Assembly: GCA_020629835.1 (NCBI GenBank)
Contig: JAHDCO010000008.1
Span: 1-43,810 of the forward strand
Direction of reading: 5' to 3'
Length of the DNA: 43,810 bases
Origin: Granulosicoccaceae bacterium
GTDB lineage: Bacteria; Pseudomonadota; Gammaproteobacteria; Granulosicoccales; Granulosicoccaceae
The notes below the pieces were generated by a model. The model made no database searches. It saw only the letters and a list, made by a program, of their open reading frames with translations, and had not been told where the DNA came from. Below, piece after piece: positions 7,142 to 24,404 of the stretch; position 1 is the first letter of the stretch; each line of letters opens with the position of its first letter. Made by a program: the position numbers and the translations under genes.

Positions 7142-8325
7142 TCAGAAAGTAACATCGACACCTAATGGTTCCATGAACTCGACACCGATTTTAAAAGTAT
7201 CGTTATCGACAAAACCGCCTTTATCATTGGTAGGCCCGTCGGAGCCATCGGTACCACAACATAATGCCTGCCAGCGTGCGGCAACTGCTTCAGCCCCCGT
7301 GGTTCTCAATTACATTTCCTTCAACAGCTACAATGCAAATTGCTGATTACGTCCACCGCGACCGGGGGATTCGGGTAATAGCATCGCTGTCTCTCCACCC
7401 CAAATATAAATACCTTTCGATTGATTTGGGTCTGTCAGCGTCTGAGCTATCTTAAACGCCATTTTGGTGACGTCACCAGTTAGTATCCCATCGTCTTGTT
7501 GAACGACGAGACCTTTCGATTGAGCACGGTCTGCCGCTGCACTACAAGCAATTTTATTGGACGCTATAATTTGCAATTTGATCTCCGACCAGATTGGTGA
7601 ATCGCTGACAGGTGCACTGCTGCTGCCACGCTGATAATCCTTTATCCAATCCGGCAATGTACTGGTAAATTCGGTGGCATGACCACCAGTAGCTGATTGT
7701 ACCAGCAATCCCGCACCGATCGATTCCAGAACATCACCGGGAACATCAGATATCAGCAACTGCAAGGTAGCTTGAGGCCCGAGAAAATTGACCAAGCGAT
7801 CACCTTTGATCAATGACAGAGATTTTCGAACCGTATTCATCATATTGATGTCCAGCCCTACCGATAACAAATAACGATTAACTCTCTGCAGATTATTTAG
7901 TGATAAATCGGGGACCAGCTATAATACCAATGAAGAGGACCCGCCTGAAATCAAAACCAGAAGACTGCTATCATTTGGCAAGTTTTGCAAAAACTGTTGC
8001 AAGTATAAACCTGCTTCTAACGATCTACTATCCGGCACGGGATGCGCAGATTCCATGCATTTGCAGCGACCATCATTTTTAAGAGTGTCGTCGATATGTC
8101 CATATTTAAAAAAACCAGTGCTCGACTCAGCCGAGCTCCCGATGCATCAATGGCCCCATGCATCATAGAAGCAGCCGCTTTGCCGATAGCGATGACATGC
8201 ACATTTTCAGCGCTGAAGTTTTGTAGAGCTTTGAACGTCGCAATATCACCTGCTACAGCTGCAACTGCCGAATCAAACAAATCACGTAGCACTAGCAATT
8301 CGTTACTATCATCTAGGTTGCTCAT
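7142..8325 (-). pseudogene. Glycerate 2-kinase (MOFRL family), frameshifted remnant
   Basis: Pieces of one MOFRL/DUF4147 glycerate kinase lie in order in different frames. The N-terminal part from ATG 8325 carries HVIAIGKAAASMM. A middle part around 8030-7870 carries LLVLISGGSSSLV followed by an in-frame TAG. The part at 7870-7328 includes LLISDVPGD and WGGETAMLLPE...GRGGRNQQFAL. The C-terminal tail contains LCCGTDGSDGPTNDKGG, ending in TGA at 7142. At least three frame changes plus stops separate them. In the living family this enzyme phosphorylates D-glycerate to 2-phosphoglycerate. The fragment follows the LacI gene on the same strand, so it was probably the last gene of the catabolic operon and has since decayed. 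Confidence 0.85.
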
Positions 8326-8549: not shown

Positions 8550-9554
8550 CTAGCGCGCACTCGAAGCACGCCGAATGAGTGAAACAGATAGACGAGCAAT
8601 TGGGTCAGGTATCTTTCCATCATTCATCCAATCCAGCATACTTTTGGCCGCAGTTTCTGCAAATTCCGGGATGTTGCAACTTACCGACGTCAAAGATGGA
8701 AAACTATCGCGACAGTCTTCAATATCATCAAAACCGACAACTCGAATGTCATGGCCCACGCGTGGGCCATGCTCTGCACAAGACGCCAATACACCCAGAG
8801 CAACCAAATCGTTAAAGCAGAGTATTCCATCAACGCTGGGATTTCTGGAAGTTAGCTCAATGGCGGCAGATCTTCCAAACTGCCGTGTCGCTTGCCCGGT
8901 AAGAATGATTGGATCTATTTTATTTTTTCTCAATACTGATAAATAGCCACTCATTCTTTCACGAGTCACAGGCCGACCCTCTAAACCTCCAAGAAACGCA
9001 ATTCGTCTACACCCCGTTTCAATCAACTCTTTCGTCGCCAACACACTACCGAGTTCGTAGTCGGGAGCAATAAACGGAAATAGCGAACAATCCTCATTAA
9101 GTCGACGAAAGACCTGAATGGTTGGTACTGCTGCCGTCTGAAGCGCGCAGATTGTCTCTTTTTCGCAACCGTACGCTGGGGAAATGATCAATCCGGAAAC
9201 ACCATGTTCGATCAAAGAGGCAATTGTGCGCGCTTGCAATTTCGGACTTTCATCAGTGTTCGCAATGACAGTTGCATACCCTTGTTCAGCCAAACTCATT
9301 TGTAGTGATGCTGCAAACTCAGTAAAGAATGGGTTGCGCACATCGTTGATGACCAACCCAATCAAACCAGATGATGCCGACCGTAAGGTCGCAGCTGAAC
9401 GATTGTAGACGTAGCCAATCGCTGCCATGGACTTGCGCACAGCAAGACGCGTCGTATCCTTGACCGTGTCGCTATCTTGTAAGACCAAACTAACAGTCGA
9501 CTTGGACACACCAGCATGCTTAGCTACATCAACTATCGTAGGACGTCGTGCCAC
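8550..9554 (-). CDS. LacI-family transcriptional regulator
   Basis: A 334-residue repressor with the N-terminal LacI helix-turn-helix (TIVDVAKHAGVSKSTVSLVL, residues 5-24). The hinge segment follows, then a periplasmic-binding-protein-like sensor domain (GLIGLVINDVRNPFF near residue 65, and a VDGILCFNDLVALG motif). It starts at a GTG, 7 bp after the DUF993 gene. It lies inside the operon it probably controls. The two TGGAACGTTCCA palindromes at the operon promoter match the AACG/CGTT-centred sites that LacI-family proteins bind. Autoregulated repression relieved by a pathway intermediate is the likely mode, by inference. The effector is not evident. Confidence 0.9.
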   Translation of the reverse strand: MARRPTIVDVAKHAGVSKSTVSLVLQDSDTVKDTTRLAVRKSMAAIGYVYNRSAATLRSASSGLIGLVINDVRNPFFTEFAASLQMSLAEQGYATVIANTDESPKLQARTIASLIEHGVSGLIISPAYGCEKETICALQTAAVPTIQVFRRLNEDCSLFPFIAPDYELGSVLATKELIETGCRRIAFLGGLEGRPVTRERMSGYLSVLRKNKIDPIILTGQATRQFGRSAAIELTSRNPSVDGILCFNDLVALGVLASCAEHGPRVGHDIRVVGFDDIEDCRDSFPSLTSVSCNIPEFAETAAKSMLDWMNDGKIPDPIARLSVSLIRRASSAR

Positions 9555-9561
9555 GTTAAAT

Positions 9562-10728
9562 TTATTTTTCTATGCCATGGAGCGCCAATAGAGTCTTCAT
9601 TCTGTACTCAGCTAATTCTGGATTGAGTAGCAATCGCGACGCATCGGCAAGTCGGTATACATTAGCATAGTGCGTGATGTCTCGACTCGATTGAAACCCA
9701 GCGGGCATGATGAAGTGCGGCTGATAACCATTCAGCCACGCCAGAAACGCTATACCAGCTTTATAGAAGCGTGTAGGTGCCTTAAATATTTCCCGACTGA
9801 GTGGGACAGTTGGCCCCAGTAGCGCCTGGTAAGTTTTTGTGTCCCCGCTTGCGAGTGCTTCGAGTCCTTGAGACGCCGCTGGAGCGATGGCGGCGAATAT
9901 TCCTAGCAGTGCGTGACTATACTGCTCACCATTCCCCGCTATAAGGTCTGTATAATTGAAATCATCACCAGTATAAAGACGCACTCCCTCTGGTAGCCTT
10001 ACACGAAAGCTTTCTTCGTGCACCTGATCAAGAAGAGATATTTTTATGCCATCTACTTTGGACGGATTCTCTTGAATTAACGACAAGACAAATCTGTTCG
10101 CACTTTCTAGCTCTTTCGAGCCCCAATAGTCTGCTAATTCGGGATCGAACATATCTCCCAACCAATGAAGAATAACCGGTTCGGCCGCCTCATCAATCAG
10201 TCTGCGATAAACCTTATAGTAATCATCAGGGGTTGCGCTGATGGCCGTAAACGCCCGTGACGCCATCAGGATAAGCTGCCCACCTGCTGCTTCGATTGCT
10301 TCAGCCTGCTCCTGATAGGCTGCGAGTATTGCTGTTGGATCGCCAAGATCATCCAACGACTTATGATCTGTACCAGCGCCACAAGCCACACGTGGTTTAA
10401 GAGAATGCGCTTTGGCAGATAATAGAGTGCGTTCGATCAATTCCTTCGCCGTTAGCCAATCCACTCCCATTCCACGTTGTGCAGTGTCCATGGCTTCCGC
10501 CAAACCCAACCCTTGGTCCCACAGTCCATTTCGGAATGCCAACGTTGAATCCCAGTCTACCGCCGGCCGTGTATCCCAAGGGCTGCGTTCACGCAATGGA
10601 TCGCTTGCAACGTGAGCCGCAGCAAAGGCTGTGCGGGTCAGTGGCACACGAGGGGCTCTTGGCAAGAGTGGTTGCTCTTTTGTCGTATAGTTCCCGAGAG
10701 TCCCATCGTCGAGTGGAAGCCTTAGCAT
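9562..10728 (-). CDS. DUF993 family protein (DHDPS-like aldolase fold)
   Basis: A 388-residue protein recognisable as DUF993, a group placed in the dihydrodipicolinate synthase/N-acetylneuraminate lyase-like superfamily. Features seen are an early LPRAPRVPLTRTAFAAAHV segment, an internal VDGIKISLLD stretch in the position where these TIM barrels carry the Schiff-base lysine, and the GVRLYTGDDFNY segment. No reaction is established for the family as far as I know. Carbon-carbon bond cleavage of a keto acid or keto sugar is a reasonable inference from the fold. It starts 3 bp after the Dabb gene and is followed 7 bp later by the LacI gene, so it belongs to the operon. Confidence 0.82.
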   Translation of the reverse strand: MLRLPLDDGTLGNYTTKEQPLLPRAPRVPLTRTAFAAAHVASDPLRERSPWDTRPAVDWDSTLAFRNGLWDQGLGLAEAMDTAQRGMGVDWLTAKELIERTLLSAKAHSLKPRVACGAGTDHKSLDDLGDPTAILAAYQEQAEAIEAAGGQLILMASRAFTAISATPDDYYKVYRRLIDEAAEPVILHWLGDMFDPELADYWGSKELESANRFVLSLIQENPSKVDGIKISLLDQVHEESFRVRLPEGVRLYTGDDFNYTDLIAGNGEQYSHALLGIFAAIAPAASQGLEALASGDTKTYQALLGPTVPLSREIFKAPTRFYKAGIAFLAWLNGYQPHFIMPAGFQSSRDITHYANVYRLADASRLLLNPELAEYRMKTLLALHGIEK

Positions 10729-10731
10729 CGC

Positions 10732-11046
10732 TTATCCTTTTGTTTCGATATCGAGTACAAGAATTCCATCGAGCCCGCCAACTGCGTGTTCAATAAGCTG
10801 CGCGCCCAGAGCTTTGTGCTCTTTGTTTTCCGAATAAGCCTGCAATGCATCCCAGCTATCGAAATCGATAACTAAACCGTGCAAATACCCTCGCTCAATT
10901 TGTTCCGGACTTTCAGACCGGCCTGCATAAAACCCTTGCGCGTTGGCCAACTTATTAATCAAAACTGAGAAGTCTGAGTAAATTTTGTTGATACGCTCTT
11001 CGGCAATATCTGACTTAAACTTGGTGAGTACAATATGTCGAATCAT
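10732..11046 (-). CDS. Dabb (stress-responsive A/B barrel) domain protein
   Basis: A 104-residue single-domain protein. It has the opening strand IRHIVLTKFKSD, the helix with a conserved AEERINKIYSDFSVLI pattern, and the central GLVIDFDSWDALQAY strand-helix typical of the Dabb ferredoxin-like dimeric barrel. Some members act as small cyclases, dehydratases or isomerases, but many are uncharacterised. The start overlaps the stop of the GMC oxidoreductase gene by 4 bp, so the two are coupled. This suggests it may act on the product of that oxidation, by inference. Confidence 0.85.
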   Translation of the reverse strand: MIRHIVLTKFKSDIAEERINKIYSDFSVLINKLANAQGFYAGRSESPEQIERGYLHGLVIDFDSWDALQAYSENKEHKALGAQLIEHAVGGLDGILVLDIETKG

Positions 11047-12635
11047 CGAAGGATTCCTTGATCTTGTTTAATCATGTCAGCAGCTTTTTCACCGATCATA
11101 ATAGACGGAGCATTTGTGTTAGACGAATTAACTGTTGGCATAATTGAAGCATCTGCGACACGCAAGCCTTCAATACCATTAAAGCGCAAACGTGGATCAA
11201 GCACCGCTTCGGTATCAATACCCATACGACAGGTCCCAGCACAATGATGAGCAGTTTTCGAGTGCGTACAAATATAATTGAAGTAATCCTCATCTGTTTT
11301 CACGTCAGGGCCAGGCAGCCGCTCGGCAAGAATGAACGGTTTTAACGCAGGCTGCGAGAGTATCTCCTGCACTAGCTTTAAACCTCGAATCGACATTTCC
11401 CGATCATAAGGATCGGATAAATAATTTGGGTCGATCAGTGGCATATCAGCTGGGTTGTTGCTTTGGAGGCGGACGGTGCCACGAGAGTGAGGACGTAAAT
11501 GGCATGCGTTTAGTGTCACGCCACCATTGGCCATAGCCTCAACACCAGCTTCAATCCCGGTGCCCAGCCCTAGGTGCATCTGTATATCGGGCGAGCGAGC
11601 ATTCTCATCCGCGTACCAGAAACCACCAGTTTCAAAAAGGCTTGACGCAACTGGTCCCTTGCGAGTCAACAGATACTGTAAACCGGCAAGAACAGACAAG
11701 TGTGGTTTGGCATAGCGATCGTAAGTGTAGTGACCCGAGACTTCACAAATGGCGTACAAATCTAGGTGATCCTGGAGGTTTTTTCCGACGCTGGGTTGAT
11801 CAAAAACAACATTAATTCCAAGGCTCTGTAGATGTTCTGCCGGACCGATACCCGAGAGCTGCAGCAATCGTGGCGAACCTATTGCACCAGAGCAGATTAT
11901 GACCTCACGATCAGCAGTGATGCACGTGCCATCGAGCAGTTCTACACCACTAGCTCGACCATGTTCGACGATGATGCGTCGAACTGAAGCCCGTTTTTTT
12001 ATAGTCAGATTTTTACGTGCTTTAGCAGGAGCAAGAAACGCCATAGCTGAGGATGAACGCCGGACGTTTCTCTGGGTTAGCTGATAATAGCCAGCACCAT
12101 CAGGCTGTTCGCCATTAACATCTATAGTCTTTGGAATTCCATACTCACCAGCAGCTTCGATAAACGCATCACATATCGGGAGCGCTGCAGCGGGCATGGA
12201 TACACCGAGCAGACCGCCCTGACTATGAAACTCTCCATTATAAGTATCGTTATCTTCAGACTTCTTAAAATAAGGTAGCACATCATCGTAGCCCCACTCT
12301 AGGCAGCCGCTTTGGCGCCACTCGTCGTAATCCTGAGCCGCACCACGAGTATAGATCTGTGCATTAATCGCAGAGCCACCCCCAATCACCTTTGCCTGTG
12401 TGTAATTGAAGATTTTGTTTTGCATTGATTGTTGTGGGGTTGTTTGCCAACCCCAGGAACCGATGCCTTTGGTCATCTTCGCAAACCCAGCTGGCAAGTG
12501 AAACAAAGGATGCCGGTCGCTACCGCCCGCTTCAAGCAATAGTACACTGGCATCTGAAATTTCAGACAGTCTCGACGCTACAACACATCCCGCTGAACCA
12601 CCTCCAACTACAATAAAATCGTATCCACTTCTCAT
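11043..12635 (-). CDS. GMC family oxidoreductase (choline dehydrogenase-like)
   Basis: A 530-residue FAD-dependent alcohol or sugar oxidoreductase. The N-terminal FAD motif is VVGGGSAGCVVASRL (residues 8-22). The GMC signature 1 region KVIGGGSAINAQIYTRG is intact. The catalytic pair is seen in TAHHCAGTCRMG (His463/464) and in the SSNTNAPS segment (Asn506/508). No signal peptide is present, so it is cytoplasmic. It is typical of BetA-like enzymes that oxidise primary alcohols to aldehydes, but substrate cannot be inferred. It lies downstream of the SDR with a 40-bp gap and overlaps the Dabb gene. Confidence 0.92.
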   Translation of the reverse strand: MRSGYDFIVVGGGSAGCVVASRLSEISDASVLLLEAGGSDRHPLFHLPAGFAKMTKGIGSWGWQTTPQQSMQNKIFNYTQAKVIGGGSAINAQIYTRGAAQDYDEWRQSGCLEWGYDDVLPYFKKSEDNDTYNGEFHSQGGLLGVSMPAAALPICDAFIEAAGEYGIPKTIDVNGEQPDGAGYYQLTQRNVRRSSSAMAFLAPAKARKNLTIKKRASVRRIIVEHGRASGVELLDGTCITADREVIICSGAIGSPRLLQLSGIGPAEHLQSLGINVVFDQPSVGKNLQDHLDLYAICEVSGHYTYDRYAKPHLSVLAGLQYLLTRKGPVASSLFETGGFWYADENARSPDIQMHLGLGTGIEAGVEAMANGGVTLNACHLRPHSRGTVRLQSNNPADMPLIDPNYLSDPYDREMSIRGLKLVQEILSQPALKPFILAERLPGPDVKTDEDYFNYICTHSKTAHHCAGTCRMGIDTEAVLDPRLRFNGIEGLRVADASIMPTVNSSNTNAPSIMIGEKAADMIKQDQGILR

Positions 12636-12675
12636 TTTAGCTTCTCAAGAAAATGATCTTCAACGACTTGGCTCC

Positions 12676-13434
12676 TCAAAGTCTGGAGATTGACAAACCG
12701 CCATCGACAGGTATCGCTGCGCCTGTGGCAAAACGCATTTGCCCAAGAGCTAGTGGTACGACAATTTGACCAATATCACGTGGTTCGCCCCAACGCCCAG
12801 CCGGCACTAGGCCTTTCTGAATTCGATCGGTGTATTTCTCTTTAACCCCAGCCGTCATCTCCGTCGCAATCACGCCAGGCCGTAATTCGAAAACACCGAT
12901 TCCATGTGGCGCTAGACGCACCGAAAAAAGTTCGCTCATCATGGCAGCACCTGCTTTGGATATGCAGTACTCAGATCGATCAGGTGAAACCATTGCTGCG
13001 CTGACAGATGTAACGAATATTATTGATCGATAGATATCAGAATCAATCGATACCATGCGGCGCGCAACCTCTTGAGCAAGGAAAAACGCTCCGCGTAAAT
13101 TGATGTTCAATACAAGATCGAAATTATCTGGCACGACCTCCAATAGATCACCACGTTTGGGTGCGCCTACCCCTGCATTGCTGACCAAGGTCGTGATCTG
13201 CCCTACCTCAGCCTCAATTTTGTCTATTAAAGCTGGAACCCCATCTATAGCGGCGACGTCGTGTTGAAAATAATGCACTCTGCTACCCAGCAATTCGAGC
13301 ATTTCTTGCACTTTAGGATTAGACGCATCTAAACGCGATGCGATCGCTACTTGAAAACCAGCGTCTATTAGTTCTTTTACAATTCCTAACCCAATGCCTT
13401 GTTGTCCACCGGTGACCAACGCAATTTTGCTCAC
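12676..13434 (-). CDS. Short-chain dehydrogenase/reductase
   Basis: A 252-residue classical SDR using NAD(P)(H). The cofactor motif is TGGQQGIGLG (residues 8-17), with VSNAGVG near 87, a serine in the VTSVSAA strand, and the catalytic YCISK. The C-terminal GAAIPVDGGLS is standard. It resembles 3-oxoacyl-ACP reductase-type enzymes, but most operon-borne SDRs of this form oxidise sugars, polyols or hydroxy acids. It overlaps the upstream GMC gene by 4 bp. Confidence 0.9.
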   Translation of the reverse strand: MSKIALVTGGQQGIGLGIVKELIDAGFQVAIASRLDASNPKVQEMLELLGSRVHYFQHDVAAIDGVPALIDKIEAEVGQITTLVSNAGVGAPKRGDLLEVVPDNFDLVLNINLRGAFFLAQEVARRMVSIDSDIYRSIIFVTSVSAAMVSPDRSEYCISKAGAAMMSELFSVRLAPHGIGVFELRPGVIATEMTAGVKEKYTDRIQKGLVPAGRWGEPRDIGQIVVPLALGQMRFATGAAIPVDGGLSISRL

Positions 13435-14927
13435 TCCGCTAACTCCTGCTCTCGAATATGTCTGCCTGCTCTTAATGCCAAAGCTGCCACGGTTAGTGCT
13501 GGATTTACCGCTGCAGATGTCGGTAACACAGAAGCATCCACAATGAAGAGATTTTTATGATCATGTGATCGACAAAAAATATCCACCACGCTTGATCTCG
13601 GATCCGCCCCCATCTTTGCAGTACCACACTGGTGAGATGGCGTAGACCGATCAAACGCTCGAGAGAGAACAACAGGAAAACCTAACTTTCGCAGCACACA
13701 CTTCGTTTTGTGCACCAGTTTTAAATGTGTTTCCCAATTAGAGCGTCGCCAATTTAGTTTAATCTGCCCGTCTTTGAGCGTTACACGACTTTCTGGATGA
13801 GGTAAGTCTTCTGACATGGCGTAGAAATCAACACTCCTCGCTGTAATCTGCTTTGCCAGCCACACAGGTATTTTTGTGTTTGCGCTTAATATGGGCCCAG
13901 TCACTTTTCCTAGTAATTGGATATTGCCCAAAGGCGCACTTTCATTTTTTTTACCTAAATAAAAATCATTTAACACTAAGGTTTTCTGATAGACCGCTCG
14001 ATTAATTCTCATTGGATTCACGGCCAATAGCGCGGAACAATTGTGATTCATAAAATTGCGCCCAACTTGATCCGATCTATTTGCGATCCCATTTGGATAT
14101 TCAACACTTGCAGACGCCAGTAGCAAAGCAGCTGATTGAACCGCGCCCGCTGCAAGTACAATTACCGGCGCAGACAAATGTTGCATCGCTCCTCCAACAT
14201 TGCAAACAACCCTGTTCACCTGTGCATCACGACCACAAGCAAGCGCGAGAACACGACACCCGGTTTTGAGGGTTACATTGTCATATGCAAGCGCTGTTCG
14301 TAGCCCGCATGTTTCTGCGTCCATTTTTCCACCACAGGTATTCGGGTAAGCATCCCAGGTGGTTTGGCCAGCACTAAGCCAATGATCAATATCAACACCC
14401 AACGGCAATGAAGACGGGTGAAAACCAGCCGCCTTTAAACGCATGCGTAAATTAGCAATATCAGCTTCATCCGGCACTGGGCCATATGGATACGAGCCAG
14501 AGTGTCTTGGCTCTGTAGGATCTTCTGTGGCGTCACCTCTCACAGCATATAGTGCCTCAGCTGCTTGATAGTCCTTTTCAATATCTTCATACGATATTGG
14601 CCAACCTGGCGTTTTACCACCCAAGTGCTGAACCGGGTCGAAATCTTCACGCCGGTATCGAATGAGCACAGCACCATAGAACTTGGAATTACCACCTACA
14701 TTGTAGTAATTACCCGGATTAAACGATCTATTATGTGCATCGAGCCATGTTTCGTTTGATCGAAATATTCCATCTCTGAAAATGGCTATAGCATCTCGAT
14801 CATAAGAAACAGGGTGTAGACGATCTCCCCTTTCTAAAATCAGAATACGGCGGCCAGTGGGAGCTAGTGCCGCAGCAAGCGTCGCACCTCCCATACCCGA
14901 ACCAATGATGATAACGTCCGGCTCCAT
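13431..14927 (-). CDS. Second GMC family oxidoreductase
   Basis: A 498-residue FAD enzyme, clearly distinct from the other GMC in this operon. It has the motif IIGSGMGGATLAAALA at residues 6-21 and the GGNSKFYGAVLIRYR signature. The C-terminal catalytic region is HQCGTAKMG with NPALTVAALALRAGRHI. The form is closer to the sugar/aldose dehydrogenase and cholesterol-oxidase-like side of the superfamily than to BetA. No twin-arginine or Sec signal is visible. It starts on the last base of the transporter ATPase stop codon and ends overlapping the SDR, which suggests the import system and the oxidation steps are co-translated. Confidence 0.88.
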   Translation of the reverse strand: MEPDVIIIGSGMGGATLAAALAPTGRRILILERGDRLHPVSYDRDAIAIFRDGIFRSNETWLDAHNRSFNPGNYYNVGGNSKFYGAVLIRYRREDFDPVQHLGGKTPGWPISYEDIEKDYQAAEALYAVRGDATEDPTEPRHSGSYPYGPVPDEADIANLRMRLKAAGFHPSSLPLGVDIDHWLSAGQTTWDAYPNTCGGKMDAETCGLRTALAYDNVTLKTGCRVLALACGRDAQVNRVVCNVGGAMQHLSAPVIVLAAGAVQSAALLLASASVEYPNGIANRSDQVGRNFMNHNCSALLAVNPMRINRAVYQKTLVLNDFYLGKKNESAPLGNIQLLGKVTGPILSANTKIPVWLAKQITARSVDFYAMSEDLPHPESRVTLKDGQIKLNWRRSNWETHLKLVHKTKCVLRKLGFPVVLSRAFDRSTPSHQCGTAKMGADPRSSVVDIFCRSHDHKNLFIVDASVLPTSAAVNPALTVAALALRAGRHIREQELAE

Positions 14928-16042
14928 CAGCTAGCAATTCGTTCTTCGGTAGCAGGATCGAACGCAACTGCTTTTTCCATGTTCACTGCAAACTGAAAAT
15001 CGTTACCCGGCTGAACATTTGCGTCGGAGCGCATACGAGCTATTACATCTTTTCCTCCTAAACTCATCGTGACAAATGTGTCCGAGCCTGCAGGCTCAGT
15101 AACGATAATCCGATTAGTAAAATTAACCACATTCTTTGAATTCCGATCAGCACCATCTTCATCGGTTATAGTCTCAGGGCGAATGCCTAGCAGGATTTGC
15201 TTCCCTTCCCACGCGCTTAGGTTTTCTTGGCTCAGCCGTAGTGGCACAACTGTCCCATCAGGCAAAGCCACACAGGCCACAGGTTTGCCGTGCTGCACCG
15301 AAATGGTTGCTGGCAAAACGTTCATAGCTGGGGACCCCATGAACGTTGCAACAAAAAGATTGGCCGGGTTGTCATATATTTCTTGAGGCGTTCCAAGCTG
15401 CTGAACATAACCACCGTTCATAACGGCTATGCGTGTCGAGAGTGTCAGAGCCTCAATCTGATCATGAGTGACGTAAACGATCGTTGTTCCTAGTTTTTGA
15501 TGCAGTTTTTTAATCTCGGTACGCATATCGACACGCAATTTTGCGTCTAGATTTGAAAGTGGCTCATCGAAAAGGAAAACATCTGGATTGCGCACCAATG
15601 CGCGACCCATCGCTACACGTTGTCGCTGCCCACCAGAGAGAGCTCCCGGTTTACGACCAAGGAGTTGTTCTATCTGTAACAGGCTTGACACATCAGCCAT
15701 TGCCTTATCGCGTTCAGCCTTTGGAACGCCATGCATCTCTAGGCCAAAAGAAATATTTTTTGCTACCGTCATATTGGGATAGAGCGCATAGGATTGAAAC
15801 ACCATGGCTATGTTACGCCTGGATGGATGCACGCCATTCATCAATGAACCCCTGATACGAATCTCACCACTGGTGATTTCTTCAAGGCCTGCGATCATGT
15901 TGAGCAAAGTTGACTTTCCACAGCCCGAAGGACCAACAAGCACTAGAAACTCACCCTCTTCAATCGAAATATCAACCTTATGTAAAACCTCAAGTGCACC
16001 ATAAGATTTGGTTGTGTTATCAATATCCAGAAATCCCATCAC
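14927..16042 (-). CDS. Carbohydrate ABC transporter ATP-binding protein (MalK/UgpC type)
   Basis: A 371-residue ATPase with Walker A GPSGCGKS at 37-44, a FQSYALYP Q-loop, signature LSGGQRQRVAMGRAL, Walker B VFLFDEPLSNLDAKLR, and the C-terminal MalK-like regulatory OB-fold domain (LLGIRPETI segment). Proteins of this class energise sugar, polyol or glycerol-phosphate importers. A second ATG follows the first, so the start may be one codon later. The gene begins 2 bp after the permease gene. Confidence 0.93.
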   Translation of the reverse strand: MMGFLDIDNTTKSYGALEVLHKVDISIEEGEFLVLVGPSGCGKSTLLNMIAGLEEITSGEIRIRGSLMNGVHPSRRNIAMVFQSYALYPNMTVAKNISFGLEMHGVPKAERDKAMADVSSLLQIEQLLGRKPGALSGGQRQRVAMGRALVRNPDVFLFDEPLSNLDAKLRVDMRTEIKKLHQKLGTTIVYVTHDQIEALTLSTRIAVMNGGYVQQLGTPQEIYDNPANLFVATFMGSPAMNVLPATISVQHGKPVACVALPDGTVVPLRLSQENLSAWEGKQILLGIRPETITDEDGADRNSKNVVNFTNRIIVTEPAGSDTFVTMSLGGKDVIARMRSDANVQPGNDFQFAVNMEKAVAFDPATEERIAS

Positions 16043-16044
16043 TT

Positions 16045-16926
16045 CTATCCTTTAACCGAACCAGCCATGAGACCGCGAACAAAATATCGGCCTGCAACGA
16101 CGTAAACAAGTAGTGTTGGCAGCGCTGCGATTATGGCCCCTGCAAAATGTACGTTATACTCTTTCACACCATGTGAAGACTGCACCAAGTTGTTAAGTGC
16201 GACTGTCATCGGTTGGCTAGTAGCGTCAGCGAACGATGCACCAAATAAAAAATCATTCCAGATATTGGTGAATTGCCAGATAATTGAAACCACCGCAATC
16301 GGACCTGAAGATGGCAGTAGGATCCGCCAAAATATCTGAAAAAAACCTGCACCGTCGATTTGCGCTGCTCTCACTAGTTCAGTAGGAAACACAGCGTAAT
16401 AGTTTCGAAAATACAGAGTAGTAAAACCAATGCCATAGACTATATGCACCAGCGCCAGTCCACTGGTTGTTCCTGCAATGCCCATCAAACCTAACATTCG
16501 AGCCATGGGTATCAACACAATTTGAAATGGTATAAAGCATGCAAACAACATCAATCCAAACAGAATTTTGTCGTATTTAAACCGCCATTTTGTTAGCACA
16601 TAACCATTTATTGCACCAAGAATGGTTGAAATTACAACAGCAGGAACAACCACTTTTATGGAGTTCCAAAAATATGGAGACAACCCGGTGGGATCAACAC
16701 CAATTTGAGCGGATGACCATGCCTTCGCCCATGGCGCAAAGGTTAATGCTTGAGGTAAATTCATCATGCCACCACCGGTTATCTCATTAAGCGGCTTTAC
16801 CGAATTTATCAACATTACATATAATGGCAACAGGTAGAACAAACCGAATAGCAGTAGAATTAAGTAAATAAGAATGCGAACTGTGCGACTAGTACGAACA
16901 GCTGTGTCTTGCATTGCATCAGCCAT
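16045..16926 (-). CDS. Carbohydrate ABC transporter permease (MalG type)
   Basis: A 293-residue inner-membrane subunit with six predicted helices. The EAA loop (ELVRAAQIDGAGFFQIFWRILLP) lies in the C-terminal half, typical of MalG-like permeases. It ends 2 bp before the ATPase gene and overlaps the other permease by one base. It forms the translocation channel with that partner. Confidence 0.93.
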   Translation of the reverse strand: MADAMQDTAVRTSRTVRILIYLILLLFGLFYLLPLYVMLINSVKPLNEITGGGMMNLPQALTFAPWAKAWSSAQIGVDPTGLSPYFWNSIKVVVPAVVISTILGAINGYVLTKWRFKYDKILFGLMLFACFIPFQIVLIPMARMLGLMGIAGTTSGLALVHIVYGIGFTTLYFRNYYAVFPTELVRAAQIDGAGFFQIFWRILLPSSGPIAVVSIIWQFTNIWNDFLFGASFADATSQPMTVALNNLVQSSHGVKEYNVHFAGAIIAALPTLLVYVVAGRYFVRGLMAGSVKG

Positions 16927-17843
16927 CAGTTTTTCTCCCGCAATTCTGCATATAAATACGGAATCATAATGGCCGCTATAGTCATTAGCATGATCGTGGC
17001 CGAGGCCGCGCCAATACCCATTTGATTGCGTGAGAAGGTGTAGGAATACATAAAGGTTGCCGGAAGCTCAGTTGCTCTGCCCGGCCCACCACCAGTTAAT
17101 GCAATAACTAAATCGAACGTTTTAATTGCGAGATGACTGAGTATCACGAATGCGGATAAGAACGCTGGTCGTAGCTGCGGTATGATGATTCGCCGATAAA
17201 GATTCCAATTAGACGCCCCATCCATTTGTGCGGCCTTAAGGATTTCGTTGTCTATGCCGCGCAAACCGGCGAGAAACATAGCCATTACAAAACCACTAGT
17301 TTGCCAAACGGCCGCTAAAACGACCGTGTAAATTGCGTAGTCTCTATCCTTAATCCAGTCGAACTCGAAGCTTGCCCAGCCCCAACTTTGCAACACGTTT
17401 TCCAGTCCGATAGAAGGATCAAGAAACCATTTCCAAGCGGTACCTGTAACGATAAAACTCAAGGCCATAGGGTATAAATATATTGTCCTCAGCACTCCTT
17501 CAGCACGAATTTTCTGATCAAGGAAAATCGCTAAACAAAGACCAATGCATGTACAGATGCCGATATAAAGAACCGAAAATATGCCCATGTTAGTCAACGA
17601 TGTTTTCCAGTGACTAAGCCGCCAAAGTTTCGAGTAGTTCTCCCACCCCACTAGACCGTAAGAGGGTAGCAATCGACTGTCTGTAAAAGATAAATACACT
17701 GAAAACGCGATAAAACCATAGACAAATACCAACACCAATACCAGAGATGGTGACAAGACCAGCTTTGGCAACCAGTTTTGCAGTCGTGTTTTAAAATCTA
17801 CGTTTGACAACTTGTCTTTACTCCGAATATTTTTCCCAATCAC
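16926..17843 (-). CDS. Carbohydrate ABC transporter permease (MalF type)
   Basis: A 305-residue inner-membrane subunit with six helices and an EAA loop (EILKAAQMDGASNWNLYRRIIIPQL truncated here: core AAQMDGASNW). The frame opens at a GTG at 17843 that sits inside the strong hairpin preceding the gene. A TTG at 17810 with a GGAG about 10 nt upstream is an alternative start that would remove 11 residues. It pairs with the MalG-type permease. Confidence 0.9.
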   Translation of the reverse strand: MIGKNIRSKDKLSNVDFKTRLQNWLPKLVLSPSLVLVLVFVYGFIAFSVYLSFTDSRLLPSYGLVGWENYSKLWRLSHWKTSLTNMGIFSVLYIGICTCIGLCLAIFLDQKIRAEGVLRTIYLYPMALSFIVTGTAWKWFLDPSIGLENVLQSWGWASFEFDWIKDRDYAIYTVVLAAVWQTSGFVMAMFLAGLRGIDNEILKAAQMDGASNWNLYRRIIIPQLRPAFLSAFVILSHLAIKTFDLVIALTGGGPGRATELPATFMYSYTFSRNQMGIGAASATIMLMTIAAIMIPYLYAELREKN

Positions 17844-17874
17844 CGGATGAGGTGATCGAAATCACCCCATCCGG
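17843..17874 (-). terminator. Hairpin between sugar-binding protein and permease
   Basis: An inverted repeat of CCGGATG.GGTGAT (17843-17856) with its complement ATCACC.CATCCGG (17861-17874), one internal mismatch and a CGAA tetraloop, lies just after the binding-protein stop. No T run follows. It probably protects the upstream message or attenuates the downstream genes, giving excess binding protein. It also overlaps the annotated GTG start of the permease. Confidence 0.75.
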
Positions 17875-17880
17875 CTGACA

Positions 17881-19125
17881 TCACTTGGCAATAGAGACTG
17901 CGTCTACCAATTCCACCACGGCGGTTGCACTGTCATATTCACCATTAAAATGGGCTGTAACAACATCGTAAATAGCGTTCTTCACGGCAGCAGGGTTAGC
18001 ATGTCCGTGAGCCACCGAGCCATACAAGTTTCCTGACTTTGCCGCGGCGGCAAGGTCTGCAATTCCTTTTTTCCCGCAGGCATCGAACGCTTCATCGGAA
18101 ACATCTGTTCGGGCTGGAACTGATCCCTTTACAACATTAAAGGCAGATTGAAATGATGGCGACAGGATCGCAGAGGCCAAGGCCGCTTGTTCAGCCGACA
18201 CCTTGCCTCCTTGGTCGAACATCATGAATTGGTCGGCGTTGAAAATGACCTGTTCGGTAGTACCGGGAAATCGGAAGCATTCAAAGTCTTTACCAGGAAC
18301 CTTATCCGCATTCAGAAATTCACCTTTCGCCCAGTCCCCCATCATCTGAAAACCAGCTTCTCCATTGATGACCATGGCAGTCGCAAGATTCCAGTCACGG
18401 CCGGAAAAATTGTCATCAACGTTGGAACGTATAACAGCCATGCGATCGAACGCTGCTTTCATATCATCACCACCTAACACGCTCTCGTCCAAATCAATAA
18501 ATGCTGCTTTGTATCGATCAGGGCCGAGGACCGACATCGCTACGCCATCAAATACAGTTACTTCCTGCCAAGGCTGGCCACCATGTGCTATCGGAGTGAT
18601 ACCAGCCACCTTTAATTTATCCAATGCAGCTGTGAATTCTTCCCATGTACTTGGCACATTGATGTTGTTCGCATCAAGTACAGCCTTGTTAGCCCAAACC
18701 CAGTTTGTTGAATGCACGTTGACCGGGGCAGAAACCCACTTGCCGTCAACTTTCGCGAACTGCTGTAATGCTTCAGGCACAACAGCGTCCCAGTCTTCAC
18801 TTGCTGCAACGTCGTTAAGATTTGCCAATGAACCTTGCATGGCCCAGTCGATAATATCGAAGCCCAACCCTTGAACAGCGGTCGGTGCATTCCCAGCAGT
18901 AACTCGGGCTCGCAGAACAGTCATAGCCTGCTCACCACCACCGCCTGCTACCGGCATGTCTGTCCAACCGATACCTTGGCTTTCAAGATCATCTTTGAGA
19001 ACATTCAGTGCGGCTGCTTCACCACCTGATGTCCACCAGTGAAGAACCTCAACATCTTCTGCTTGAGCCGTAACTGCTGTAACCATGATAGCCATGGCAA
19101 TATTCGCTTTTAGAAATTTACGCAT
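17881..19125 (-). CDS. Extracellular solute-binding protein family 1 (sugar)
   Basis: A periplasmic binding protein of about 414 residues. The start is taken as the ATG at 19125 because GGAGGAG lies directly upstream and because [20 protein letters not shown] followed by QAED gives a clean signal peptide. A longer frame exists but adds an implausible leader. The mature start ([16 protein letters not shown]) is typical of the glucose/mannose-like binding proteins. It captures the substrate for the MalFGK-type importer encoded next. Stimulus and ligand are unknown. Confidence 0.92.
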
Positions 19126-19174
19126 TAAGAAACTCCTCCGATATGCGATTAAAATTACAACGCTTACACACGCC

Positions 19175-20695
19175 TTATGCGCGTTGTTCAACCCAAGGTG
19201 TCCGACTGCGCCCAATGCGCATTAGTATCGACTTCACCTTAAGAAACTCTTCATACCCGTAACGGCCAATTTCTCGGCCCTGACCTGACTGCTTAACTCC
19301 GCCAAAGGTAAGCTCTGGATAACCATCCATCCAGGTATTGGTCCAGACGGTTCCTGCCTCGACTTTCCGCGAAAACTCAATACATGTATGCACGTTTTCA
19401 CTCCATACCCCTGCGGACAAACCAAAAACGCTGTCGTTAACCATCGTTATGGCTTGGTTTAATGTACGAAAGGTCAATACGCTAAGCACCGGACCAAACA
19501 CCTCTTCACGAGCAATGTCCATATCTGGGGTAACGCCACTTAGCACGGTGGGTTGATAAAACTGGTTGCCAAGTCCATCGATGGGTAATCTCTCCCCACC
19601 TAACTCAAGCTTGGCTCCGGCCTCAATGGCCGCCTGAACATACTCATGGATTTTTGTATTGTGCTCATCGGTTACGATCGCACCAACCTGTGTATCGGGA
19701 TTCATCGGATCACCAAACTTAACCTGCTTAGACAGTTCGATAACACGCTGAACAAATGTGTCAGCAATATCTTCGTGCACAATGATGCGACTAGATGAAT
19801 TGCAACACTGTCCAACATTGAAATACACGCCAAACACGACCGCATCCGCCGCGCTCTCAAGGTCGGCATCTGGAAAAATCACTTGCGGATTCTTTCCACC
19901 CAGTTCCAATGCCACTTTTTTTAATGTATTCGAGCAAGCTTGTGTTATTAGCTTGCCTACAATGGTGGAACCCGTAAACGACACCATGTCGACTTCTTTG
20001 TGGGCCGCCAATAAGCTACCCACTGGTTCACCGTGCCCCAACACGATGTTGCACACCCCCGCGGGTAGCCCCGCTTCTAATAGGAGTTCACCAAGCATAA
20101 CGGTTGATGAGGGCGTCATTTCTGATGGCTTAACTATTACCGTGCAGCCTGCGGCTAGAGCAAAAGGCAGTTTCTGACTAAGAATCCAAAACGGAAAGTT
20201 CCATGGCGTGATTATCGAAACAACACCAACGGGTTCCTTCACAACGATGCCGAGCATATCTTCACCCAGACTGTTATGGCTATCACCGTGGCCAGTCCGC
20301 GCTAGGGACGCAGCGTATCGCCAAAGATCTGAGGCACCACCAACCTCACCTCGTGACTGAGCAATCGGTTTGCCACTTTCAAGGGTCTCTTGAGCAGCAA
20401 TGCGCTCAACATTGGCATCGATTAAATCGGCAACCTTCAACAGAGTAGTTGCCCGCTGCTTGCCAGACAGCCCACTCCAAGAATCACTCTCGAAAGCACT
20501 TCTTGCTGCCGCTATCGCATTTTCAGTTTCACTCGCCGTGCCCTTAGCAGAAATACTCACCACTAAGCCATGGGAAGGTGAAACACGCTCGAGTGTTTCA
20601 GAACCACTTATCCACTCACCATTAATAAGGTGTTTACCAACAAAGGGGACAGGCTCATCGATCTCGATAACATCGCTTATTGTCAGTTCAGGCAT
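19175..20695 (-). CDS. NAD(P)-dependent aldehyde dehydrogenase
   Basis: A 506-residue ALDH superfamily enzyme counted from the ATG at 20695, which is preceded by AAGGAAA. The longer frame to 20785 overlaps the hydratase gene and is less likely. It has the cofactor region [21 protein letters not shown], the catalytic glutamate motif [13 protein letters not shown], and the catalytic cysteine in [11 protein letters not shown]. Closest in style to betaine-aldehyde or gamma-aminobutyraldehyde dehydrogenases. In this operon it would oxidise an aldehyde made by a GMC enzyme to the acid used by the CoA-transferase (inference). Confidence 0.93.
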
Positions 20696-20699
20696 CAGC

Positions 20700-21467
20700 T
20701 TAATTTCCTTTAAATTCAGGTGAGCGCTTGTCAAGAAAGGCTTGCACACCCTCTTCTCGATCAATACTGTCCGCAGCAGCAGCACTGCCGAGAGCCTCTA
20801 TAGCTGCAGAGCTATCCTCACCAACCGCACCGTGAATCATCAACTTTGTCAACTCGTTAGAGCGTAATGACATACTCTCCAAGTTTGATGCAATCTGTTT
20901 TGCGGTCTCTATTGGATTGTTTGAAACTTCAGCAGCAAAACCCAATGAGTAAGCCCGCTTGGCATCTACACGACGTCCAAACAAAGCAATCTCTTTCAAA
21001 ACAGACTCCGGTAGCAAGCGACCAAGTCGTTGGGTACCGGACCAACCCGGCACGATACCCACGTTGGCTTCTGGGAGTGCAAGCGTACTGTTGTCGGAAA
21101 AAATGCGTATGTCGCAACAAGCTGCGAGTTCCAGACCGCCGCCAAACGCATGCCCATTGACTGCGCACAACGTCGGTTTATTAAAGCGAGCTAATCGATC
21201 AAAAACACGATGCCCATTACGAACCCAATAGCGCGAGAAATCGGCTGAACTTAACGAACCCCATTCTGAAATATCAGCTCCACAACAAAATGCTTTTGTT
21301 CCAGATCCAGTTACTATGAGGGCACGAACTTCGGGATTACGTTCAATCTCGACCAGACAATCGTTGATTTGGGTAAGCATTTCTGAGGTCAGTGCATTCA
21401 ACTTGCTTTCATTTGAAAGCGTAAGCACGGCGGCATTGTCTTCGTAACTACAGATGATCTGACTCAT
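20700..21467 (-). CDS. Enoyl-CoA hydratase/isomerase family protein
   Basis: A 255-residue crotonase-fold enzyme. The oxyanion-hole residues are seen around CGADISEWG and HAFGGGLELAACCDIRI. The position after GIVPGWSGTQRLGRLL matches the second catalytic region. Proteins of this superfamily hydrate, isomerise or cleave acyl-CoA thioesters. Its start overlaps the CoA-transferase stop by 4 bp (ATGA), which suggests the two act in sequence. Confidence 0.9.
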   Translation of the reverse strand: MSQIICSYEDNAAVLTLSNESKLNALTSEMLTQINDCLVEIERNPEVRALIVTGSGTKAFCCGADISEWGSLSSADFSRYWVRNGHRVFDRLARFNKPTLCAVNGHAFGGGLELAACCDIRIFSDNSTLALPEANVGIVPGWSGTQRLGRLLPESVLKEIALFGRRVDAKRAYSLGFAAEVSNNPIETAKQIASNLESMSLRSNELTKLMIHGAVGEDSSAAIEALGSAAAADSIDREEGVQAFLDKRSPEFKGN

Positions 21468-23047
21468 AACGTTAGGCCAAGTGGTGCGTTGGCCAGCAGC
21501 GATGTTGACATGAGCTTCAAATCATCAGCGAGACTAATTCGTCCATTAGATGCATCTACAATATGCTTTTGAGGATCGATACTCGGCATGACCTCAATAG
21601 CTACCAGTCCTTTTTCAGTCAACTGCATCACACAGCGCTCGGTTACATAAGTTACCCGTTGCCCTTGCTCTAATGCACGACGACCTGAGAAGGTGACATG
21701 TTCAACTTCGTCGACAACTTTTACGAATTTGCCAGGTTCGACAATAGTTAATCCATTATCATTAAATTCGACTTTGGCCCCAGCTTCAAACCAGCCCGAA
21801 AACACAATATTCCTAGCACGAGAGGTAATATCGACAAATCCACCGCACCCAGCAGTTAAATACGGCTTTTTACCTAACTTTGATACGTTCACATTGCCTT
21901 CAACATCAATCTCAAGGAAGGATAGAAATGAAACATCAAACCCTGCACCTTGAAAATAGATAAATTGCTGAGGCGCTGGTAAAAAGGCATCGGCATTCGA
22001 CGCACAGCCAAACGCAAACCCTGTCAATGGCACACCGCCAACTGCTCCTTGCTCTATGGCCCAGGTAACCGCATCCGGACAGCCCTCTTCAAGAAGAATA
22101 CGAGGCACTAAGGCACTAATTCCAAATCCCAGATTTGCCGTCATACCACGACGCAATTCAAGCGCGGCACGGCGCGCGATGATCTTTTCAACGCCATGTT
22201 CAGCTAATGTAAAGCTGTTCCATGGCCGCATAACCTCACCTGAAATTTCTGGGTCGTATTCAGTTTCAGTTGTTTGTTTTTGATGCGGATCGACTACCAC
22301 ACAGTCAATAAGATTGCCCGGAATATGCACATCTTGTGGACGCAAACTACCAGTAGCCGTGACTCTTTTTACCTGCGCAATAACCAAACCCCCATTATTG
22401 CGCACACAAATTGCTTGCTCGAGTCCGCCGAGATAAGCACCTTCATGTTCATAGGTCAGATTGCCTTTTTCATCTGCGGTGGTGGCGCGAAGGATCGCTA
22501 CATTGGGAATAATGTTTGGGAAATGCAGCCATGTTTCATCGGCAAACTCCACGCGGTTTACGATTGGTGTCTGCGCGCCCGTTTCGTTCATTGCACAGCC
22601 TTCGCGATGAGGATCAACAAATGTATCCATACCAACTTTGGTTAATACACCAGGCTTGTGCGCAGCAGCCTCACGATGCATATCGAACAAGATGCCAGAA
22701 GGTACGTTATAAGCAGCTACTCGATCTTCGACGATCATCTTCCATATTTCAGGCATTTCAACGCTAGATGGCCCGGAGGGATAGGATCCTGCGAGAATGC
22801 GTTCCAGAAGACCATCTTTGGCAATGTGATCGATTCCATCGACGCCATAAACGTCACCGGCTGCAATTGGATTCAATGACGTAATACCGCATGGATGACC
22901 CTCTTTATCGAAACGCTCGCCAATAGCCTTTAACACTGCGTCCGGGCAACCAAGCGCTGATGAAGAAGACACGGAAATGACAGCACCATCAGGAATACGT
23001 TTTACCGCATCGCTCACTTCAATTAATTTAGTCATTTGCTCATTCAT
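21464..23047 (-). CDS. Acyl-CoA:carboxylate CoA-transferase (fused, YdiF/Pct type)
   Basis: A 527-residue fused alpha-beta class I CoA-transferase. The catalytic glutamate is seen in the motif AIEQGAVGGVP, matching the E-x-G motif of acetate/propionate CoA-transferases. It transfers CoA from one thioester to a free acid through a glutamyl-CoA intermediate. It overlaps the upstream MocA-type gene by 8 bp and the hydratase by 4 bp. Having such an enzyme in a sugar-import operon is unusual and implies that a carboxylic acid intermediate is handled as a CoA ester. Confidence 0.9.
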   Translation of the reverse strand: MNEQMTKLIEVSDAVKRIPDGAVISVSSSSALGCPDAVLKAIGERFDKEGHPCGITSLNPIAAGDVYGVDGIDHIAKDGLLERILAGSYPSGPSSVEMPEIWKMIVEDRVAAYNVPSGILFDMHREAAAHKPGVLTKVGMDTFVDPHREGCAMNETGAQTPIVNRVEFADETWLHFPNIIPNVAILRATTADEKGNLTYEHEGAYLGGLEQAICVRNNGGLVIAQVKRVTATGSLRPQDVHIPGNLIDCVVVDPHQKQTTETEYDPEISGEVMRPWNSFTLAEHGVEKIIARRAALELRRGMTANLGFGISALVPRILLEEGCPDAVTWAIEQGAVGGVPLTGFAFGCASNADAFLPAPQQFIYFQGAGFDVSFLSFLEIDVEGNVNVSKLGKKPYLTAGCGGFVDITSRARNIVFSGWFEAGAKVEFNDNGLTIVEPGKFVKVVDEVEHVTFSGRRALEQGQRVTYVTERCVMQLTEKGLVAIEVMPSIDPQKHIVDASNGRISLADDLKLMSTSLLANAPLGLTL

Positions 23048-24035
23048 AATTCACACTAACCGATTGACCATTCTGTGCAGACTCACGCACTGCCAAGGAG
23101 ACGGCCAGCGACATTAAACCGTCAGAACCCGTTGCCGCAGGAGACCCTTTACCACGAGCGGCGGAAACAAAATCAGCCACACCTTGAACGTATAAGGAGT
23201 GACTACTAAACGGAATTAGCTTCTCCCCATCAGAATTGCGCAGACTTATAGACCCAACTGGTTGTTGTGTCATGACACCAGTTGCCACAATAGAACCCTG
23301 TGTGCCGTGTATTTCCAAACCTGTTCCAGCAAATGGGTGGGTAAAGCTTTCATGCGACATCACCATCGCACCTGAAGGCATACGCCAAACTGACATGCAG
23401 GAATCTTCAACCCCTACACCCATGCCTGACATTTCGCTTAGAGCTACGACCTCAACTGGGTCTTCATCTAACAGAAATCGAACAACATCAGCGTTGTGCA
23501 CGGTTATATCTGCGATAACACCTCCGCCTGCGCTGGCATCATTAATGCGCCACGCTTGAAGAGCTGTCGGAAGATGAACAGCGTGGTGCACTCGCACAGA
23601 CAAAACGCGACCAATTACACCAGTAGCAATCATTTCTCGAATCACGCGATGCGATCCTGAGCACCTCAAGTGATGGTTCGTTCCGAATACCAAATTAGCC
23701 TGATTTGCCGCGGCAACCATTTGCCGAGCTTCGCCCATAGTTAACGCAAGTGGTTTTTCGCAAAGGACATGCTTACCTGCAGCAATCGCTGCCATGGCCT
23801 GAACAAAGTGCTTTTCATTTGTAGAGGAGATGTATACACAGGACACACTATCGTCAGAGAGAGCTTCTTCGATCGATGATGTGAATCGAGGAATTTCGTA
23901 CTCACTGGAATATCGAATGGCATGCTCGGATGACCCACTCACCAACCACGTCACGTCGCAGCCCACCTGGGCGCGAACAGCGTGAATCACGTATTCGGAA
24001 GCCACCGTACTTGCACCTACTAAAACCCAATGCAT
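23040..24035 (-). CDS. Gfo/Idh/MocA family oxidoreductase
   Basis: A 331-residue NAD(P)-dependent sugar or inositol dehydrogenase-like protein. The Rossmann start is VLVGASTVASEYVIHAV, and the family motif HVLCEKPLALT lies near residue 92. The C-terminal domain has GGGVIADITVHNADVVRFLL, where the conserved Asp and His are seen. It is the first gene of the long operon, with the ATG about 30 nt downstream of the predicted transcription start. No strong ribosome site is visible. Confidence 0.92.
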   Translation of the reverse strand: MHWVLVGASTVASEYVIHAVRAQVGCDVTWLVSGSSEHAIRYSSEYEIPRFTSSIEEALSDDSVSCVYISSTNEKHFVQAMAAIAAGKHVLCEKPLALTMGEARQMVAAANQANLVFGTNHHLRCSGSHRVIREMIATGVIGRVLSVRVHHAVHLPTALQAWRINDASAGGGVIADITVHNADVVRFLLDEDPVEVVALSEMSGMGVGVEDSCMSVWRMPSGAMVMSHESFTHPFAGTGLEIHGTQGSIVATGVMTQQPVGSISLRNSDGEKLIPFSSHSLYVQGVADFVSAARGKGSPAATGSDGLMSLAVSLAVRESAQNGQSVSVNYE

Positions 24036-24056: not shown

Positions 24057-24068
24057 TGGAACGTTCCA
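24057..24068. promoter_or_regulatory. LacI-type operator, proximal
   Basis: The 12-bp perfect palindrome TGGAACGTTCCA overlaps the predicted transcription start of the operon. It is one of two near-identical copies and has the AACGTT core common to LacI-family operators. Confidence 0.75.
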
Positions 24069-24071
24069 ATT

Positions 24072-24100
24072 AATATACTGGAACGTTCCAGTTTATGCAA
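24072..24100 (-). promoter_or_regulatory. Promoter of the catabolic operon
   Basis: On the minus strand TTGCAT (24095-24100) and TATATT (24072-24077) are separated by exactly 17 bp. The -10 is a 5/6 match to TATAAT; the -35 is weaker (TTG retained). The spacer is filled by the distal operator palindrome. Transcription would start near 24065. Confidence 0.6.
24077..24092. promoter_or_regulatory. LacI-type operator, distal
   Basis: The 16-bp perfect palindrome ACTGGAACGTTCCAGT lies between the -35 and -10 elements. Its centre is 22 bp from the centre of the proximal copy, close to two turns of the helix, so two repressor dimers could bind the same face. Confidence 0.78.
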
Positions 24101-24404
24101 CCGTTTACAAATATGATCTGAGGTGCCTGTCAAGATAATCGCAGCTTTTTACTAAGATGCTGTGTCTAGCATTTCCCTGTTCAGCGTTATCGTTTGATCC
24201 CACTGACAGTGTCTGACATGAGCAGTTACTCCACTAGGGATTGCCGATTTGCCTGCCTCTATATCTCATCTCGCTTGGCAAGATTCTGTACATCTTCACC
24301 ACGGTGTCGTTGGCTCGGTGTTACAAACTTCATCTGATTGTATATTTGCTCGTCGCCTTAAAGGTAAGGTGCCTCACGGTCAACAAACAACTAACCGTCC
24401 CATA
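24101..24404. other. Intergenic region upstream of the operon
   Basis: Besides the operon promoter at its edge, this stretch holds an imperfect dyad TGCAACCGTTTACA at 24096-24109. It also holds a plus-strand frame open from about 24218 to a TGA at 24418-24420, encoding about 66 codons without an ATG. That frame may be the tail of a lost gene; I recognise no family. The IS66 relic begins near 24404. Confidence 0.4.

Follow-up and report, generated by a model that had tools for sequence, protein, structure and literature searches.

A conserved pair of predicted LacI-family operators over the promoter of a 14-gene catabolic cluster in a Granulosicoccaceae bacterium

The predicted promoter of a 14-gene cluster in a Granulosicoccaceae bacterium carries two copies of the palindrome TGGAACGTTCCA, one between the -35 and -10 elements and one over the predicted transcription start. 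We regard it as very probable that both are operators of the LacI-family protein encoded by the cluster's own last gene (8550-9554, - strand), which would repress the cluster until an inducer releases it. The window, by which we mean the whole stretch of DNA analysed, comprises 43,810 nucleotides of contig JAHDCO010000008.1. The first-pass annotation of this DNA had proposed such a two-operator design, and the proposal is strengthened by the pair, its placing over -35, -10 and +1, and the regulator all being conserved together across genera, as well as by the co-occurrence of pair and regulator within the window's taxonomic family. Recurrence of the arrangement in dozens of other bacteria points to a real and well-conserved switch of an ordinary LacI kind.

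Site pair and promoter layout

Both copies of TGGAACGTTCCA in the window are exact and lie at 24057-24068 and 24079-24090, with a centre-to-centre distance of 22 bp, just as the first-pass annotation had described. Each is an even palindrome with a central CG (TGGAAC.GTTCCA), a trait of LacI-family operators. On the - strand, the predicted distal operator (24079-24090) lies within the 17-bp spacer (24094-24078) that separates a -35-like hexamer, TTGCAT (24095-24100), from a -10-like hexamer, TATATT (24072-24077). The predicted proximal operator (24057-24068) covers the predicted transcription start, placed at about 24065 from the position of the -10 hexamer, and the ATG of the first gene follows downstream at 24035. 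The earlier claim that the distal copy, extended to 16 bp, fits exactly inside the spacer holds for the 12-bp core and for its 14-bp extension; the 16-bp palindrome ACTGGAACGTTCCAGT (24092-24077) runs one base too far and takes in the first position of the -10 hexamer.

The -35-like hexamer is weak, matching TTGACA at 3/6 positions, while the -10-like hexamer matches TATAAT at 5/6, and the promoter is absent from the output of a generic promoter scan. As a result, it is conservation that supports the promoter call: in relatives, the TTG of the -35 hexamer and the TA of the -10 hexamer are retained. A third operator-like palindrome, the imperfect TGCAACCGTTTACA over the -35 hexamer (24096-24109, + strand), was considered and dropped; its columns are poorly conserved except for the -35 TTG.

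The first-pass annotation had looked to a genome scan for the 12-mer to define a regulon. In that scan, the 4,337,836-base genome (4.34 Mb) contained exact copies at 24057-24068 and 24079-24090 only, both at the promoter, and a reversed control pattern had no exact copy across the same 4,337,836 bases. When one mismatch was allowed, 14 places were found genome-wide (the 2 exact copies included) against 7 for the reversed control, and within the window a search allowing two mismatches found 3 sites against a shuffle mean of 1.91, with 33/100 shuffles reaching 3. Thus only the exact pair stands out here. A wider regulon in this genome was looked for and found no support: allowing one mismatch added 12 places to the exact pair, where the control gave 7, and the regulon appears from these counts to be a single operon.

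Conservation of the pair among relatives of the regulator

A scan with the regulator yielded 269 relatives, of which the best 80 (55-71% identity) were used, and 50 of the 80 were picked for searches of genome sites and upstream regions. Because the relatives were found via the regulator, 50 of the 80 were chosen, and ancestry is shared, they are not independent trials. In the 80 loci, cluster genes flank the regulator up to the limits of the contigs; lacI is preceded by a hit to one of the cluster's dabb, gmc or duf993 genes, and in two loci (L051 and L076) a gmc1 gene lies beyond lacI. An orthologue of the CoA-transferase gene was present in 50/50 chosen relatives, and the region read in each was that upstream of this gene, or of the mocA gene preceding it.

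A pair of sites, with up to two mismatches and 18-26 bp apart, was found in 44/51 upstream regions (the window's and those of 50 relatives) and in 0/200 dinucleotide-shuffled region sets. One contig (L137) ends before the promoter and was excluded from the 50 usable regions, 6 of which have no pair at 18-26 bp: three have one clear site (L111, L138 and L144), and three have two sites at other distances, namely 53 bp (L141), 32 bp (L142) and 13 bp (L143). In a test of all 4096 palindromic 12-mers, TGGAACGTTCCA with up to one mismatch occurred in 50/50 usable regions; the variants TGGATCGATCCA and AGGAACGTTCCT occurred in 19 and 8 of the 50, and any other palindromic 12-mer in at most 2. In the relatives the site is mostly TGGAWCGWTCCA.

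Across the genomes of the 50 relatives the exact 12-mer has 73 copies, compared with 3 for the reversed control. These copies belong to 35/50 relatives; the other 15 have none anywhere and carry variants only. Fifty of the 73 copies are at the orthologous promoter, 17 are on the same contig within 25 kb, and 6 are elsewhere, 2 of which (both in G042) may represent the missing promoter of a broken contig. In some relatives a second unit close to lacI is directly preceded by an additional copy (e.g., L018:11055-14375). Five second-unit proteins, from four loci, proved to be either MocA-like oxidoreductases or FAD oxidoreductases some 680-700 residues long; the frames tested next to lacI in the window included no second-unit gene.

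The position of the distal site relative to the promoter was assessed in 42 aligned promoters, a set that excludes L133 and L139, in which the pair finder took a third, upstream site. A TTG starts 9-12 bases before the distal site in 41/42 of these promoters, compared with 1-8/42 for TTG in six other intervals of equal width, and a TA starts 1-3 bases after the distal site, again in 41/42. The columns farther upstream are near random, and the remainder of the -10 hexamer is poorly conserved, with a T at the sixth base in 6/44. Since TTG and TA are kept around the distal site, the placing of the operator in the spacer is itself conserved. One regulator-bearing genome of the window's family (G072) has just one site, which occupies the spacer and is flanked by TTGTAT and TATAGT, and this suggests that a site in the spacer can be enough by itself; L144, which retains just a site near the start codon, counts against the spacer site sufficing alone. 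In three relatives (L133, L135 and L139) a third, weaker site lies directly upstream of the -35 element, 24 bp from the spacer site.

The first-pass annotation had also called the two sites in-phase, a description that is apt only as an approximation: the spacing is 22 bp in the window and varies among relatives from 19 to 24 bp. With the three-site promoters L133 and L139 counted by their 21-bp pair, the spacings were 19 bp (1), 20 bp (5), 21 bp (16), 22 bp (10), 23 bp (9) and 24 bp (3), with a mean of 21.7 bp. At 10.5 bp per turn, this range corresponds to deviations of as much as roughly 70 degrees in one direction and 100 degrees in the other, so that exact helical phase is not required and the sites would share one face of the DNA only roughly. 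Their distance may be dictated by the intervening -10 box no less than by contact between dimers. Two outlier spacings, 32 bp and 53 bp, come near to integral numbers of helical turns. Distances between sites of LacI-family regulators have been reported to peak at 13, 22 and 32 bp (PMC4052901), and the spacings in L143 (13 bp) and L142 (32 bp) match the two peaks other than 22 bp.

The gene cluster, its regulator and the proposed switch

All 14 genes of the cluster (8550-24035) are on the - strand and were assigned from Pfam matches. Starting from the promoter, they encode a GFO/IDH/MocA oxidoreductase (23040-24035), a CoA-transferase family protein (21464-23047), an enoyl-CoA hydratase/isomerase family protein, or crotonase (20700-21467), and an aldehyde dehydrogenase (19175-20785) whose listed start may be too far upstream. 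These are followed by the genes of an ABC transporter, comprising a sugar-type solute-binding protein (17881-19215), two permeases (16926-17843 and 16045-16926) and a MalK-type ATPase (14927-16042). The remaining genes encode a GMC-type oxidoreductase (13431-14927), a short-chain dehydrogenase (12676-13434), a second GMC oxidoreductase (11043-12635), a Dabb-domain protein (10732-11046), a DUF993 protein (9562-10728) and finally the LacI-family regulator (8550-9554), which thus ends the cluster that it would control. Among the NCBIfam matches listed for ten cluster proteins, only the short-chain dehydrogenase had one above cut-off, to a broadly named reductase. The gene content is consistent with a sugar-type catabolic operon, presumably transcribed from end to end as one transcript, and from the domain types our guess is that the substrate is a sugar, glycoside or cyclitol. 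Between a permease gene and malK, some relatives carry another gene for a solute-binding protein (e.g., L020:4173-5375), with products 45-49% identical to the one encoded in the window. At 7328-7870 there is a short frame with a DUF4147 piece above cut-off and an MOFRL piece below it; we take both to be domains of glycerate-kinase-type proteins, and the frame looks like a broken gene.

The regulator is a 334-aa protein with a LacI helix-turn-helix domain (PF00356, 50.5 bits) and a periplasmic-binding-protein-like sensor domain (PF13377, 99.6 bits), both above cut-off. Its recognition helix reads SKSTVSLV, and these residues, S17-V24, are invariant in 81/81 LacI proteins (those of the 80 loci and the window). 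Published work on LacI-family recognition derived its code for proteins with TVSR (PMC2978694); the window's regulator has TVSL instead, so the code was used as a guide only. In the alignment to E. coli LacI, residues 5-331 of the regulator match residues 4-328 and just 3 residues lie beyond, and no tetramerisation tail of the E. coli LacI kind, which in that protein is C-terminal, was found. Two dimers are therefore likelier than a single looping tetramer.

With no inducer present, a LacI dimer bound to the distal site would fill the spacer between the -35 and -10 elements, and a second, adjacent dimer would cover the start site, so that RNA polymerase would be kept off the promoter. The protein would be released on binding an inducer, probably either the sugar-like compound that the transporter imports or a pathway intermediate. 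As the regulator's gene would be transcribed from the very promoter that its product blocks, the regulator would limit its own level.

It is conceivable, and in our judgement quite improbable, that the sites are used by another LacI-family protein or another palindrome-binding regulator and that the gene at 8550-9554 merely rides along. The genome provides candidates, with 12 LacI domains found, but the K-S pair at the two specificity positions of the recognition helix occurs in the 8550-9554 protein only among the 12. Moreover, the site tracks the orthologue of this protein across genera, and in several relatives it is present near the orthologue, before the second unit.

An equally poor prospect, in our estimation, is that the protein is an activator, or that it binds like PurR with a ligand acting as co-repressor, which would reverse the logic of induction. 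As a matter of general knowledge, proteins bound within the spacer and across the start site would obstruct polymerase, making activation unlikely. Binding of DNA together with a ligand is known for PurR (PMC4052901), a precedent for the reversed arrangement, and nothing found here counts against co-repression. A hairpin or terminator formed by the inverted repeats at the start of the transcript is hardly credible: 24092-24077 does appear in a terminator scan, as a terminator-like stem followed by an A+T tail, but shuffles of the region average 0.6 such sites, the distal repeat, which is short, palindromic and gapless, precedes the predicted start, and the conservation of both sequence and position relative to -35 and -10 is explained by a DNA-binding site and not by a hairpin. 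Repression by the cluster's own LacI protein at both sites remains the reading that we prefer.

Known systems, distribution and origin

Double operators of LacI-family regulators at 22 bp have been documented (Ravcheev et al. 2014, PMC4052901), the 22 and 32 bp spacings being read there as cooperative binding of two dimers, and RafR and ScrR are given as groups with double sites at 21-22 bp only (PMC4052901). The pair described here resembles those double-operator regulons in its even palindrome with a central CG, its association with a local operon and its agreement with the 22-bp peak (PMC4052901), with a spacing of 22 bp in the window and of 19-24 bp in 44/51 regions. The window's orthologous group, its motif and the placing of an operator in the spacer are neither named nor described in the available parts of that study's main text (PMC4052901).

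A second point of comparison is TreR of E. coli. The gap between treR and treB contains GGGAACGTTCCC, which has the same 10-bp core as the window's site and which we take to be the TreR operator. The two regulators share the K-S residues of the recognition helix and the GGAACGTTCC core; they differ in that TreR has TVSR where the window's protein has TVSL, and in the operon concerned. Within the 7001 bases of E. coli sequence scanned, there was one site with up to one mismatch to the core. A literature search for TreR with the 10-base core returned one unrelated Streptomyces paper only, and a search for TGGAACGTTCCA or DUF993 found no paper, RegPrecise and supplements being outside its scope.

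Operators in the spacer are familiar from engineered promoters of the PA1lacO type. Engineered promoters carrying a LacI or TetR operator between -35 and -10 have been described, and some designs add a downstream operator (PMC5754348), as in the window. Those promoters were built, whereas the layout in the window is natural and conserved across genera.

Of 48 genomes in the window's family, 3 have the pair (W variants accepted, otherwise zero mismatches) and 4 have the regulator (E <=1e-75), with the 3 contained in the 4; Fisher's test gives p 0.0002 for the co-occurrence, with shared ancestry ignored. In one of these genomes (G057) pair and regulator are on separate contigs, the pair standing just before mocA and coaT, and in another (G082) the end of the contig truncates the regulator. 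In a class-wide sample of 369 genomes, regulator and pair were found together in one, the window's own, which establishes rarity and little else.

A 16S gene was not found in the window's genome (2/6 genomes searched had one), and so RpoB was chosen for placing the host. Over 1137 residues the host's RpoB shares 69.8% identity with the E. coli protein, compared with 59.1% and 60.1% with those of two alphaproteobacteria, and on account of its being closer to E. coli the host was taken as gammaproteobacterial. In contrast, the closest regulators (the best 80 of 269) are alphaproteobacterial where a family is named: many are from Paracoccaceae and Roseobacteraceae and some from Rhizobiaceae and others, with these three named families presumed by us to belong to Alphaproteobacteria. 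Given a gammaproteobacterial host and alphaproteobacterial closest regulators, the operon and its switch were probably transferred together. A quick tree, which is provisional and in which one of the four bearers from the window's family is represented by a 196-residue piece, places the window's lacI among alphaproteobacterial ones and the four family bearers in three places. Transfer of the whole cassette is likely, and probably happened more than once. We lean slightly towards a pre-wired cassette of operon, promoter and repressor having entered this gammaproteobacterial family from Alphaproteobacteria, perhaps three times, with its geometry kept. Just upstream of the promoter, a 262-aa open frame at 24654-25442 matches part of an IS66 transposase; it is possibly a trace of the operon's arrival.

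With these results the operon gains a defined, if predicted, switch, together with a motif, TGGAWCGWTCCA, for recognising its regulon in other genomes. The natural layout, with one site in the spacer and one over the start, is kept across genera while the flanking sequence diverges, and it resembles the designs that engineers use for tight repression. The findings further suggest that an operon, when transferred, can carry its own working promoter and repressor with it.
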